Assembly (NCBI RefSeq): GCF_013403925.1
Contig: NZ_JABFDJ010000007.1
Span: forward strand, 62,001-126,000
Direction: 5' to 3'
DNA from: Winogradskyella wichelsiae
Lineage (GTDB): Bacteria > Bacteroidota > Bacteroidia > Flavobacteriales > Flavobacteriaceae
DNA: 64,000 nt
Below, one piece after another: positions 25,469-30,395 of the stretch. Position 1 is the stretch's first letter; the number at the start of each line of letters is the position of its first letter. Made by a program: the position numbers and the translations under genes. The notes beneath the pieces were generated by a model. It saw only the letters and a program-made list of their open reading frames with translations. It made no database searches and was not told the origin of the DNA.

Positions 25469-26908
25469 ATGATTTCTAATGCATCCGCATTTTACTCGCT
25501 TCTAAAATCTAAATTCCCTTTTGCACCAACGTCTAAGCAAGATATGGTATTGATGCAATTGTCTCAATTTATATTTGATTCTAATAAAAATTCAATCTAT
25601 CTACTTAAAGGTTACGCAGGTACAGGTAAAACAAGTATTATTGGTACGGTTGTTTCTAATTTATGGCAGGTCAAAAAAAGTGCAGTATTATTAGCTCCCA
25701 CAGGAAGAGCTGCTAAGGTTATTTCAAATTATTCGAAAAAAGAAGCCTTTACAATTCATAAAAAAATATATTTTCCTAAAAAGGATAAAGGAGGTGGTGT
25801 TAATTTTGTAATACAACCTAATAAGCACCGAAATACAATATTTATTGTAGATGAAGCTTCAATGATTCCTGATACACCTTCAGATTCACAATCTTTTGAA
25901 AGTAGTTCTTTACTAGATGATCTAATGTCTTACGTGTATTCAGGACAAGATTGTAAACTATTATTAATAGGTGATAAGGCGCAATTGCCACCTGTAAAAT
26001 CAGATTTAAGTCCAGCATTAGATGAAAATAGACTTAGCCTAAACTATAATAAAGATGTTATTGGTTTAGAATTGGATGAAGTTGTAAGGCAAGAACAAGA
26101 TTCTGGTATTTTAAGTAATGCAACAGAATTGAGAGCTGTTTTAGATTCTAATTTCTATGAGAGTTTTAAGTTTGATTTAAATGGTTTTACAGATAGTGTG
26201 CGTTTAATTGATGGTTACGAAATAATGGACGCCATTAATGATGCATATAGTGAAGATGGTTACGAAGAGACAGCTATAATTGTACGGAGTAACAAACGAG
26301 CTAATATGTACAACCAACAAATACGTCAACGTATTCTATTTAATGAAACCGAATTGTCATCGGGTGATTATTTAATGGTGGTTAAAAATAATTATTTCTG
26401 GATTAAACCAAATACTGAAGCCGGGTTTATTGCTAATGGTGATATTATTGAAATTCTTGAAATATTTAGTATTAAAGAATTGTATGGTTTTCGGTTTGCA
26501 GAAGTGAAAATTAGAATGGTAGATTATCCTAATATGGAACCATTTGAAACCGTATTAATCTTAGATACTATTGATGTAGAAAGTGCATCATTGAGTTACG
26601 AAGAATCAAACAGATTATACCAAGAAGTTTCTAAGGATTATGAAGATGAAACAAAGTACAAACGTTTTTTAGGAGTAAAGAATAATAAGTTTTTTAATGC
26701 CTTGCAGGTCAAATTTTCTTACGCTATTACATGTCATAAATCACAAGGTGGACAATGGAATACTATTTTTGTAGAGCAACCTTATTTACCAAATGGTATG
26801 GATAGAGATTACATTCGTTGGTTATACACAGCAATCACTAGAGCAAAGGGAAAACTTTACTTAATAGGTTTTAAAGATGAAATGTTTGTTGAGAAAAACG
26901 ACTATTAA
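25469..26908 (+). CDS. RecD-like superfamily 1 DNA helicase
   Basis: This is a 479-residue ATPase of the RecD2/PIF1-like group. Walker A is GYAGTGKT (48-55), a second motif LLAPTGRAAKVI follows, Walker B is IFIVDEASMI, motif III is LLLIGDKAQLPPV, and the C-terminal motifs are FSYAITCHKSQGGQW and YTAITRAKGKLYLI. The N-terminal extension of full RecD2 is missing, so it is a compact 5'-3' helicase probably acting in repair or recombination. No recB or recC is nearby. It starts divergently from the membrane protein gene. Confidence 0.9.
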   Translation: MISNASAFYSLLKSKFPFAPTSKQDMVLMQLSQFIFDSNKNSIYLLKGYAGTGKTSIIGTVVSNLWQVKKSAVLLAPTGRAAKVISNYSKKEAFTIHKKIYFPKKDKGGGVNFVIQPNKHRNTIFIVDEASMIPDTPSDSQSFESSSLLDDLMSYVYSGQDCKLLLIGDKAQLPPVKSDLSPALDENRLSLNYNKDVIGLELDEVVRQEQDSGILSNATELRAVLDSNFYESFKFDLNGFTDSVRLIDGYEIMDAINDAYSEDGYEETAIIVRSNKRANMYNQQIRQRILFNETELSSGDYLMVVKNNYFWIKPNTEAGFIANGDIIEILEIFSIKELYGFRFAEVKIRMVDYPNMEPFETVLILDTIDVESASLSYEESNRLYQEVSKDYEDETKYKRFLGVKNNKFFNALQVKFSYAITCHKSQGGQWNTIFVEQPYLPNGMDRDYIRWLYTAITRAKGKLYLIGFKDEMFVEKNDY

Positions 26909-27052: not shown

Positions 27053-27781
27053 ATGAAAATTATATCCATGATTCCTGCACGTTATAGTGCGTCGCGTTTT
27101 CCCGGTAAACTAATGCAGAATTTAGCCGGAAAATCCGTCATTCTTAGAACTTATGAAGCTACAGTGGCTACTAAATTATTTAGTGAAGTCTATGTGGTTA
27201 CGGATAGTGATATTATTTATGATGAGATTGTCAATAATGGAGGTAAAGCCATTATGAGCTTAAAAGAGCATGAATCTGGTAGTGATAGAATAGCAGAGGC
27301 TGTTGCTAACATTGATTGCGATATTGTTGTTAATGTACAAGGAGACGAGCCGTTTACAGAAGGAGAAAGCTTGGCTAAAGTTCTAAATGTTTTTAGAAAC
27401 GATGAAAAGAAAGAAATTGACTTAGCTTCACTAATGGTGGAAATTAAAGATTGGGATGAAATAAATAATCCTAACTCTGTAAAAGTCATTGTAGATCAAG
27501 AGAATTTTGCACTGTATTTTTCACGAAGTCCAATTCCATATCCTAGAGATAAAGAAGTAAACGCTAGATACTTTAAACATAAAGGAATTTATGCTTTTAG
27601 AAAAGAAGCATTATTAGAATTCACAGTTTTGCCAATGAAATTCTTAGAAGCTTCAGAAAAAATTGAATGCATCAGATATTTAGAATACGGTAAGCGTATT
27701 AAAATGGTAGAAACTGAAATTGAAGGTGTGGAGATTGATACGCCAGAAGATTTAGAAAAAGCAAAGCTTCTATGGAAGTAG
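27053..27781 (+). CDS. kdsB: CMP-Kdo synthetase (3-deoxy-manno-octulosonate cytidylyltransferase)
   Basis: KdsB activates Kdo with CTP for lipopolysaccharide inner-core synthesis. The 242 residues show the nucleotide motif [30 protein letters not shown], and the closing [15 protein letters not shown]. It overlaps the following HAD gene by 10 bases, and a KdnB-like Kdo oxidase lies 870 bases on. In Shewanella an enzyme of this family works with KdnA and KdnB on 8-amino-Kdo, so the true substrate here could be Kdo or its 8-amino form. Confidence 0.94.
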
Positions 27782-28485
27782 ATTACAAAAACATAAAAGT
27801 TATAGGCTTCGATGCAGATGATACACTTTGGGTAAATGAAACTTACTTTAGAGATGCTGAAGAAGAAGTAGGTCTATTACTATCGCATTTTGAAACACCT
27901 AATAAAATAGATCAAGAACTTTTTAAAATTGAAATAAAAAACCTACCAACTTACGGTTACGGTGTAAAAGGTTTTATTCTTTCAATGATAGAATTAGCCC
28001 TAGAATTATCTAATAATACGGTTTCGAATGATGTAATTGGAAAGATTTTAGAGATAGGTAAAGAGATGATTAATAAACCTATTGAGTTGTTAGAAGGAGT
28101 AGAAGATGTACTTAAGGAACTTTCTAAAGATTATAAATTAATTGTTGCAACCAAAGGTGATTTATTAGATCAAGAACGAAAATTAGAAAAATCGGGACTG
28201 TTAAAGTATTTTCATCATATCGAAGTATTAAGTGAAAAGCACGATAATAATTACAGGCAATTACTAAAACGATTAGATATTGACCCAGAGTCATTTTTAA
28301 TGATTGGTAATTCTTTAAAATCAGATATTTTACCCTTAGTAAAGATTGGTTCTCAGGCTATACATGTCCCTTTTCATACAACTTGGCAACATGAGCAAGT
28401 AACTAAAAAAGAAGCGAATGATTCTGATTATAAAACAGTAAAAAACCTAACGGGTGTGTTAAGTTGTTTTAATACACTCAATTAA
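27772..28485 (+). CDS. HAD-superfamily hydrolase
   Basis: This is a 237-residue HAD phosphatase. Motif I is GFDADDTLW (catalytic aspartates in DADDT), motif [10 protein letters not shown], and motif [14 protein letters not shown]; an alpha-helical cap lies between motifs I and II. It overlaps kdsB by 10 bases and is probably translated with it. It is too large and has the wrong cap type for the small Kdo-8-phosphate phosphatase KdsC, but a sugar-phosphate substrate is plausible from context. Confidence 0.85.
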
Positions 28486-28625
28486 ATATGATGAAGCTTA
28501 ATAAATGCTTGTTTATCAAATAATTATTTTTTTAAATGATAAATTCAAGTAGGAATTAACTTCAAAATAAATATTAAATTATAAAAATTTAAGAGAGTTC
28601 AATACTAATAATTAAGCAAAGTTCT

Positions 28626-28633
28626 TATTTTTG
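28626..28633 (+). promoter_or_regulatory. Candidate -7 element (TATTTTTG)
   Basis: It matches TAnnTTTG, 17 bases before the start codon of the KdnB-like gene. No good TTG at -33. Confidence 0.45.
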
Positions 28634-28650
28634 TTAAAGATAAAAAGTAA

Positions 28651-29733
28651 ATGAAATTCAAAAATTATCCAATGGTGTCCAGAGTTGTTTTTGGACGAGG
28701 AAGCTTCAATCAACTCGAGGAAATTCTAGCGACAAAGCGCAACGGAATCAATGCACCATTTATATATTACGTCGATGATGTTTTTAAAGGCAATCATTGG
28801 TTAACCTCTAGAATAAAACTGTCCTATAAGGATAAAATTATCTATGTTCCAACATCAAAGGAACCCTCAACGGATCAAATTGATAAGTTGGTAGAAGATC
28901 TTATTTTAGAGTATAGTGAATTACCATCTGGAATAATTGGAATCGGTGGAGGTATTGTTTTAGATATTTCTAAAGCGGTATCTTTAATGCTTACCAATAA
29001 AGGTGAGTCTAAAGATTACCAAGGATGGGATTTAATTAAACAACCGTCATTGTATCATGTTGGTATTCCTACGCTTTCAGGAACTGGTGCTGAAGTTTCT
29101 AGAACGACAATTTTAACAGGTCCTGTAAGAAAATTAGGGATAAATAGTGATTATACACCTTTTGATCAGGTTATTTTAGACCCCGAATTGACTAAAGATG
29201 TGCCAAAAGATCAATGGTTTTTTACAGGGATGGACTGTTATATACATTGTATAGAGTCTTTAACCGGTACTTACTTAAATGCATTTAGTCAAAGTTATGG
29301 TGAAAAAGCATTAGAATTATGTAAAGAGATCTTTTTAGAAGATACACTTAGTAGAGAAGAGTCTCAAGATAAACTAATGATGGCATCTTGGCATGGAGGT
29401 ATGAGTATTGCTTATTCTCAGGTAGGTGTTGCACACGCCATGAGTTATGGTTTAGGCTATTTATTAGGCATAAAGCATGGAGTAGGTAATTGTATTGTTT
29501 TTGATCATTTAGAAGAATATTATCCAGAAGGTGTCGCTATTTTTAAACAGATGAAAGCGAAGCACAATATTCAAATACCTCAAGGTATCTGTACAAATTT
29601 AGATGAAGATCAATTTGATAAAATGATTGATGTTGCACTTAGTTTAGAACCACTTTGGGAAAATGCTATAGGTAAAAACTGGAAAACTATAATTACAAGG
29701 CAAAAGCTATTAGATCTTTATAAAAAGATGTAA
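28651..29733 (+). CDS. kdnB: KdnB-like iron-dependent Kdo 8-oxidase
   Basis: This is a 360-residue group III iron-containing alcohol dehydrogenase. The NAD site is IGIGGGIVLDISKA; the metal ligands fit Asp195, His199 (MDCYIHCIE), His262 (VAHAMSYGLG) and His276 (KHGVGNC). Beyond the general family, VVFGRGSFNQL, YQGWDLIK and KLGINSDYTPFDQVI recall KdnB of Shewanella, which oxidises C8 of Kdo before the aminotransferase KdnA adds an amino group. kdsB lies two genes upstream. No kdnA is in the window. A general alcohol dehydrogenase is the alternative. Confidence 0.82.
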   Translation: MKFKNYPMVSRVVFGRGSFNQLEEILATKRNGINAPFIYYVDDVFKGNHWLTSRIKLSYKDKIIYVPTSKEPSTDQIDKLVEDLILEYSELPSGIIGIGGGIVLDISKAVSLMLTNKGESKDYQGWDLIKQPSLYHVGIPTLSGTGAEVSRTTILTGPVRKLGINSDYTPFDQVILDPELTKDVPKDQWFFTGMDCYIHCIESLTGTYLNAFSQSYGEKALELCKEIFLEDTLSREESQDKLMMASWHGGMSIAYSQVGVAHAMSYGLGYLLGIKHGVGNCIVFDHLEEYYPEGVAIFKQMKAKHNIQIPQGICTNLDEDQFDKMIDVALSLEPLWENAIGKNWKTIITRQKLLDLYKKM

Positions 29734-29840: not shown

Positions 29841-30395
29841 ATGCGCTGGTTAGCAAAATTTATATATTTTAAATTATTGGGCTGGAAAGTTGTTGGTAAT
29901 ACCAACTTCTCTAAGGACACTGTTAAAAAATCAATTATAATAGCTGTGCCGCATACCAGTTGGCACGATTTTTATATTGGTGTTTTACTTAGAAAAATAG
30001 CAGATGTTAAAACTAATTTTGTTGGAAAAAAAGAATTATTTATTTGGCCATTAGGTTATTATTTTAGAGCTGTTGGTGGCCGTTCTTTAGATAGAACATC
30101 AGGGCAAAATAAAGTAGAAGCTATCGCTAAACTCTTTGAATCAACTGATGAGTTTAGACTTACTTTAGCACCTGAAGGCACTAGAAAAAAAGTAAAAGAT
30201 TGGAAAACAGGGTTTTATTATATTGCTAAAAAAGCTAATGTTCCTATTATAATGTTTACAATGGATTTCAAAAATAAACAGAATAAAATATCAGAACCTT
30301 TTTATCCAACGGACGACATGGAAGCTGATTTTGTAGCAATGAAATTATTTTTTAAAGGAGTAGAAGGTAAGGTAAAAGAATATAGTTACGATTAA
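29841..30395 (+). CDS. PlsC-like 1-acylglycerol-3-phosphate acyltransferase
   Basis: This is a 184-residue acyltransferase with the HX4D motif in VPHTSWHDFY, the FVGKKELF and GGRSLDRT region, and LAPEGTRKK, which together define the PlsC family. A hydrophobic N-terminus (WLAKFIYFKLLGWKVV) should attach it to the inner membrane. It is shorter than E. coli PlsC (245), as many Bacteroidota paralogues are, so the acceptor may be lysophosphatidate or another lipid. Confidence 0.88.
   Translation: MRWLAKFIYFKLLGWKVVGNTNFSKDTVKKSIIIAVPHTSWHDFYIGVLLRKIADVKTNFVGKKELFIWPLGYYFRAVGGRSLDRTSGQNKVEAIAKLFESTDEFRLTLAPEGTRKKVKDWKTGFYYIAKKANVPIIMFTMDFKNKQNKISEPFYPTDDMEADFVAMKLFFKGVEGKVKEYSYD

Follow-up and report, generated by a model that had tools for sequence, protein, structure and literature searches.

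Background

The described enzymes closest to the oxidase and the aminotransferase analysed here come from Shewanella. In the passages of the literature available to us, KdnB is the characterised member of FeADH3, a class of iron-containing alcohol dehydrogenases (Fe-ADH), with its product placed in Shewanella (PMC5125639); 8-amino-Kdo (Kdo8N), the 8-amino derivative of 3-deoxy-D-manno-octulosonate (Kdo), is called 'a hallmark of Shewanella species' (PMC6357163) and set Shewanella apart from all lipopolysaccharides then known (PMC3210612). For Shewanella a C8 signal near 44-45 ppm is reported (PMC6357163). Kdo8N has a mass about 0.98 Da below that of Kdo, and N-acetylation adds 42 Da to it. One text mentions Kdo8N under Shewanella and adds in a single sentence that it is confirmed in 'other bacterial species' (PMC4052302), another cites the Shewanella modification (PMC12175506), and the terms 'Kdo8N' or '8-amino-Kdo' occur in two more (PMC7281004, PMC3946165). 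A gene annotated kdnB is listed in one Leptospira strain (PMC8510873), so the annotation is not confined to Shewanella. No mention of Kdo8N in Bacteroidota was found in the available passages of the literature examined, subscription journals lying mostly outside its scope. We have analysed a kdsB-kdnB locus in a stretch of 64,000 nucleotides (the window: positions 62001-126000 of contig C55 of the studied genome, G000, which is 3.9 Mb in size and 99.96% complete), together with the candidate genes of the same pathway elsewhere in this genome and in its relatives. The genome very probably carries a complete Kdo8N pathway, by which 8-amino-Kdo would replace Kdo in the lipopolysaccharide.

KdnB, KdnA and the other pathway genes

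On the + strand of the window kdsB (27053-27781) is followed by a gene for a HAD-family hydrolase (27772-28485) and then by an Fe-ADH gene (28651-29733, 360 aa), so that the oxidase lies two genes after kdsB, as the original prediction had it. The dehydrogenase had been likened to KdnB, and sequence comparison confirms its predicted identity as a true KdnB, 3-deoxy-alpha-D-manno-octulosonate 8-oxidase, by its score, its ligands and the phylogenetic pattern described below. In a phmmer search against all solved structures the window protein matched KdnB of S. oneidensis with 452 bits (5k8c, E 1.4e-134; 448 bits for 3rf7), whereas the best Fe-ADH of another kind reached only 89 bits. It is 55% identical to 5k8c. 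The four residues that correspond to the metal ligands of the Fe-ADH family lie in a stretch at 29233-29478 (+): Asp195 (29233-29235), His199 (29245-29247), His262 (29434-29436) and His276 (29476-29478). All were said to be kept, and they are indeed invariant in a six-row alignment that includes 5k8c.

The aminotransferase KdnA had been reported missing from the window, with the suggestion that it be sought elsewhere in the genome. Both points hold: the window contains no KdnA-like gene and none of the genome's 10 PF01041 matches is on contig C55, while contig C56 carries one (66330-67520, - strand, 397 aa) that scores 461.8 bits against the solved KdnA 5k8b, compared with 167.3 bits for the next sugar aminotransferase. 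Its Lys186, presumably the pyridoxal phosphate (PLP) lysine of the family, falls within a motif that 5k8b also has. The gene is flanked by ribBA-like and nitroreductase-like genes, named by eye from their sequences. Four strong DegT-family aminotransferases are present in the genome; the one beside waaA (L004) was considered for KdnA and rejected as WbpE-like, with 322 bits to 7b0d, 320 bits to WbpE (3nyu) and 115 bits to KdnA (5k8b).

The other genes sought, kdsA, kdsC, kdsB and waaA, were found as well. kdsA is on contig C11 (370.6 bits, cut-off 314) and kdsC on C55 outside the window (141 bits, cut-off 107); waaA was recognised by PF04413, its NCBIfam scores being below the equivalog cut-offs, and there is a single KdsB match in the genome at E≤1e-20. 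Thus kdsA, kdsC, kdsB, kdnB, kdnA and waaA occur in one genome, though scattered. With the KdnA and KdnB proteins scanned, none of the NCBIfam models attained its cut-off; annotation that relies on them would therefore leave the pathway unnamed.

Occurrence and linkage in the family

The two genes were sought in 149 genomes drawn evenly, one per genus, from a family that we take to be Flavobacteriaceae, because the nearest named KdnB relatives are Winogradskyella species (up to 90% identical); W. eximia and W. jejuensis are among the species with a kdnB locus. Presence was scored above 500 bits, a line fixed after the gaps in the scores had been seen (KdnB 510, then 247 and 101; KdnA 548, then 246 and 165); it excludes the weak matches to KdnB in G099 (247 bits) and to KdnA in G052 (246 bits). 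KdnB is present in 100 of the 149 genomes and KdnA in 99: both in 97, neither in 47, KdnB alone in three and KdnA alone in two (Fisher p 1.4e-32, uncorrected for kinship). All five genomes with a single gene are 75-88% complete, those with KdnB alone (G062, G066, G140) being 75-84% complete and those with KdnA alone being G048 and G083.

In all 100 family genomes with KdnB, kdnB lies on the same strand as kdsB, 27-1419 nt downstream between match ends, which excludes a chance neighbourhood. In 15 genomes the two genes are fused, joined by a short linker, into a single reading frame of 609-635 aa; in the fusion that was scanned (L034), the cytidylyltransferase, Fe-ADH and ADH_Fe_C domains are found in one protein. 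The order helicase - kdsB - HAD - kdnB - acyltransferase recurs in many other KdnB loci, and loci without kdnB, for example L168, L180 and L189, retain helicase - kdsB - HAD - acyltransferase. kdnA is adjacent in a few cases, as kdnA-kdsB-kdnB in L041 and L042 and as kdnA - kdsB - HAD - kdnB in L043. The proposal that an 8-amino-Kdo pathway feeds the lipopolysaccharide thus finds support at the sequence level in the co-occurrence of the genes, in the fusions and in a waaA-kdnA-kdsB-kdnB cluster outside the family.

Residue 227 of KdsB

The window KdsB (242 aa) passes the CMP-Kdo cytidylyltransferase equivalog model TIGR00466 with 186.6 bits (cut-off 155.2). Its columns were compared in 185 KdsB proteins, 142 from KdnB loci and 43 from family genomes with neither gene; 80 named loci (of at least 567 relatives), none of them from Shewanella, were counted among the positives on KdnB alone. 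Column 227 in window numbering (codon 27731-27733, +) is the best separator of the 242 columns and, from the column statistics and the tree test given below, a candidate marker for specificity towards 8-amino-Kdo. Glu occupies it in 139 of the 142 KdnB loci (the others being L075, unreadable, L198, Ser, and L203, Gly), and among the 43 genomes without the pair the residue is Gly in 37, Ser in three, Ala in one and Glu in two. In the family sample alone, where KdsB was read in 57 of the 100 KdnB genomes and in 43 of the 47 with neither gene (44 when L203 is added), Glu227 is found in 57/57 of the former and 2/43 of the latter; two of the 57 (L048, L245) have no KdnA match. Five aligned KdsB sequences from the PDB all have Gly at this position; they include 3k8d/1vh1 from E. 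coli, 1vh3 from H. influenzae and 1gq9, the enzyme of the K5 capsule. Two residues further on lies Asp229; judged by where the match to 2y6p ends, it is the counterpart of D219 in the Aquifex KdsB, which is described in the available part of its source as a ligand of the catalytic Mg-A (PMC3149649).

The data from which column 227 was picked, as the best of 242, overlap those of the later test, and genomes absent from the column-choice set therefore offer a partly independent check. Among ten such genomes with both KdnA and KdnB, seven have Glu (G368, G340, G125, G274, G376, G179, G270) and three have Cys (G237, G289, G332); among 57 with neither gene at E≤1e-60 only G303, in which KdnB is absent, has Glu, the rest having Gly, Ala, Ser or Asn. 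An apparent Glu in L314 is a gap artefact (motif G-I-D) and was counted as Gly. The contrast is also seen within one genus code, where G131, with the pair, has Glu and G234, without it, has Gly. The three genomes with Cys227 carry more distant proteins (KdnA 43-46%, KdsB 35-38% and KdnB 48-50% identity), and Cys was seen only in these (L299, L298, L301) among the KdsB proteins read; it is perhaps a second solution for the same substrate.

Tree test and controls

The dependence of residue 227 on kdnAB was examined on a tree of the 76 loci, out of 101 labelled, that have a usable helicase; it was built from the helicase, the acyltransferase and KdsB minus column 227. The trees are of the quick type, supported by the Shimodaira-Hasegawa-like approximate likelihood ratio test (SH-aLRT) only and with long branches flagged. 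kdnAB and Glu227 each require 12 changes on this tree. In eight independent pairs on supported branches Glu227 goes in the same direction as kdnAB in 7.6 on average and in the opposite direction in none (median p 0.008). The label of one locus, L203 of G262, was changed after its Gly had been seen: first treated as KdnB-bearing, it was then counted as without the pair, because G262 has no KdnA at E≤1e-60. When it is left out, 6.6 of seven pairs agree in direction (median p 0.016), and counting it as a positive leaves the pairs and p as they are. A first tree, from the helicase alone, had just two supported pairs.

Other KdsB columns (177, 142, 136, 225, 12, 11, 241) track kdnAB in at most about 4.2 of the eight pairs. 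Among control columns the highest divergence is 0.55 in the helicase and 0.41 in the acyltransferase, against 0.81 for KdsB 227. The control columns are not all clean, since phi of single columns rises to 0.84 and 0.78, against 0.94 for KdsB 227; we assume that these high values belong to sparsely filled columns.

Occurrence beyond the family

In the phylum KdnB was found at E≤1e-60 in 22 of 296 genomes, 19 of which have KdnA at 379 bits or more. The three without a strong KdnA are G262, with no KdnA match at E≤1e-60, and G288 and G312, with only an aminotransferase of 39% identity and about 227 bits. The KdnB-like gene of G262 (L203, 3998-5077, in a kdsB locus) has His199 changed to Gln and His262 to Arg, beside a KdsB with Gly227, and from its sequence it looks like the decay of a pathway after loss of KdnA. 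Some other Bacteroidota have larger clusters: waaA-kdnA-kdsB-kdnB in L202 (G338), its waaA scoring below the equivalog cut-offs; kdnA-kdnB-kdsA-kdsC-kdsB in L198 (G391); and in L192 (G237) kdnA-kdnB with kdsA, a transaldolase/KdsD-like gene, kdsC and, at the margin of the stretch, kdsB. The kdsC assignments carry weak scores of 49-55 bits. In the most sampled genus of the family (code g128, perhaps Flavobacterium), none of 17 species has KdnB or KdnA at E≤1e-60.

KdnA-like proteins in 62 genomes of group f17 (37-46% identity, 207-241 bits) were not counted as KdnA; 60 of these 62 genomes have no KdnB at E≤1e-60. The plasmid collection contains no KdnB at E≤1e-40, and the viral collection contains one distant relative. 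The latter, on viral contig IMGVR_UViG_3300017971_000228 (L307, 5974-11628), is a KdnB-like oxidase 37% identical to that of the window (232 bits to 3rf7), after which come a DegT aminotransferase and, below the model cut-offs, a fragment of a KdsB-like cytidylyltransferase. This may be an amino-sugar-acid cassette carried by a virus, or the contig may contain host DNA.

Proposed pathway and alternatives

The gene set is orthologous to the Shewanella enzymes; it is co-inherited and linked, in part fused, and accompanied by a correlated residue in KdsB. The reactions and their order are supplied by analogy with Shewanella. KdsA and KdsC, by the functions of their families, would make Kdo; KdnB would oxidise its C8 to an aldehyde, and KdnA would transaminate this aldehyde in a PLP-dependent step to give Kdo8N. 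KdsB would then activate Kdo8N with CTP, and WaaA would move it onto the lipid A precursor. Glu227 could pair with the 8-ammonium group of Kdo8N, through which KdsB would prefer this sugar, and Kdo would be fully replaced in the lipopolysaccharide. The window KdsB is probably, on this sequence evidence, a CMP-8-amino-Kdo cytidylyltransferase.

Several points weigh against this reading, which is built from sequence. kdnA is not linked to kdsB-kdnB here but lies on another contig, so that the contiguous arrangement is missing. Glu227 occurs without KdnB in G303 and in G021 and G117, which are sister lineages within the family, and Cys (three) or Ser (one) takes its place in four class-level genomes whose KdnA-KdnB pairs are more distant; for these two reasons Glu227 may be permissive or one of several solutions. 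In the available text of PMC3342949, Capnocytophaga canimorsus, placed in Flavobacteriaceae by its authors, has one ordinary Kdo with phosphoethanolamine.

The same four class-level genomes, which pair KdnA and KdnB with a KdsB lacking Glu227, would also suit the idea that Kdo8N is made but sent to another glycan, a capsule or O-chain, while lipid A keeps Kdo, and it is from gene content that we place Kdo8N on lipid A. We judge this improbable: the genome has a single KdsB at E≤1e-20, which is encoded in the kdnB locus, and relatives have kdnA-kdsB-kdnB beside waaA (L202) or kdnA-kdnB with kdsA and kdsC (L192, L198). The oxidase and aminotransferase might instead be orthologous by sequence but use another sugar acid here. 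Fe-ADH and DegT enzymes switch substrate readily, and 55% identity to the Shewanella KdnB leaves room for such a change; yet the scores are far above those of all other solved relatives, the genes co-occur, are linked and are fused with kdsB, and Glu227 follows the pair, which makes a different substrate quite unlikely. It is hardly credible that KdnB works without a partner, with oxidised Kdo or no product at all as the outcome, and is linked with KdsB only through a chance order of genes. G262 does have a KdnB-like gene in the locus and no KdnA at E≤1e-60, but its protein has lost two metal ligands, as decay after KdnA loss predicts, and KdnB without KdnA in the family is confined to the three 75-84% complete genomes.

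A complete pathway with Kdo8N in place of Kdo remains the reading that we prefer for the studied genome. For a wider picture we claim a somewhat better than even chance: that Kdo8N, not Kdo, is the usual inner-core sugar in most marine Flavobacteriaceae genera and in scattered other Bacteroidota; that KdsB turned into a synthetase dedicated to Kdo8N through a change from Gly to Glu next to the catalytic metal site; that this change came and went with kdnA and kdnB many times; and that KdsB merged with KdnB into a single polypeptide within one part of the family. The full enzyme set is carried by about two thirds of the genera sampled from the family, which suggests that marine flavobacteria commonly have Kdo8N in their outer membrane. 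The available part of PMC9478572 discusses the core of a Bizionia in terms of Kdo; of the 80 kdnB loci listed, out of at least 567 relatives, two come from Bizionia records.

Neighbouring genes

The order on the + strand of the window is helicase, kdsB, HAD hydrolase, kdnB and PlsC-like acyltransferase. The helicase (25469-26908, +), RecD/PIF1-like by Pfam, is the synteny-conserved 5' neighbour of kdsB and served as an independent marker in the trees. The HAD hydrolase (+, 237 aa) overlaps kdsB by 10 nt. It is probably outside the Kdo8N pathway, since the gene is retained in some genomes without KdnAB and is absent between kdsB and kdnB in the fusion loci. We considered it as KdsC and rejected it, since a KdsC above the cut-off was found elsewhere and the HAD protein scores below the cut-offs of the specific models, besides its persistence in some genomes lacking kdnAB. 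The acyltransferase (29841-30395, +; PF01553 and synteny) adjoins kdnB; it remains near kdsB in several genomes that lack kdnB and is therefore a fixed neighbour, not a pathway gene.

A chloramphenicol-acetyltransferase-like gene (PF00302) lies between HAD and kdnB in L053 (3752-4372) and L208 (4028-4645), and is not present in the window. Similar frames are found in L227 and L247, and one in L155 (2168-2809, G021) stands in the usual place of kdnB.

Significance and comparison with known systems

If Kdo8N is indeed made by two thirds of the flavobacterial genera sampled, a large marine group has been wrongly credited with an inner core of ordinary Kdo. A positive charge at the lipid A junction would bear on membrane stability and on phages, lectins and antibodies, and the correlation with Glu227 offers a one-residue test of a sugar change in a cytidylyltransferase. 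The enzymes themselves are of a known kind; what appears to be new is that they are spread among Bacteroidota, that kdsB and kdnB can be fused and that a KdsB residue correlates with the pair.

By sequence the pair is that of Shewanella oneidensis (KdnB, 5k8c, 452 bits; KdnA, 5k8b, 462 bits), with the metal ligands, the PLP lysine motif and the association with kdsB kept. The organism, however, belongs to Bacteroidota and not to Gammaproteobacteria. kdnA, kdnB and kdsB are contiguous in Shewanella, whereas here kdnA is unlinked, HAD lies between kdsB and kdnB, and 15 sampled relatives have kdsB and kdnB fused. With the KdsB family (TIGR00466; 3k8d/1vh1, 1vh3, 1gq9 and Aquifex 2y6p) the window KdsB shares the C-terminal motif x-[IV]-D-T-P-E-D-L with its metal-binding Asp, but the relatives bearing KdnAB have Glu, not Gly, two residues before that Asp. 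Finally, the window oxidase groups with KdnB, the characterised member of FeADH3 (cd08184), a class taken here from its description in the available part of PMC5125639; the table there ties the function to the lipopolysaccharide of Shewanella, whereas the proteins described here are from Bacteroidota.

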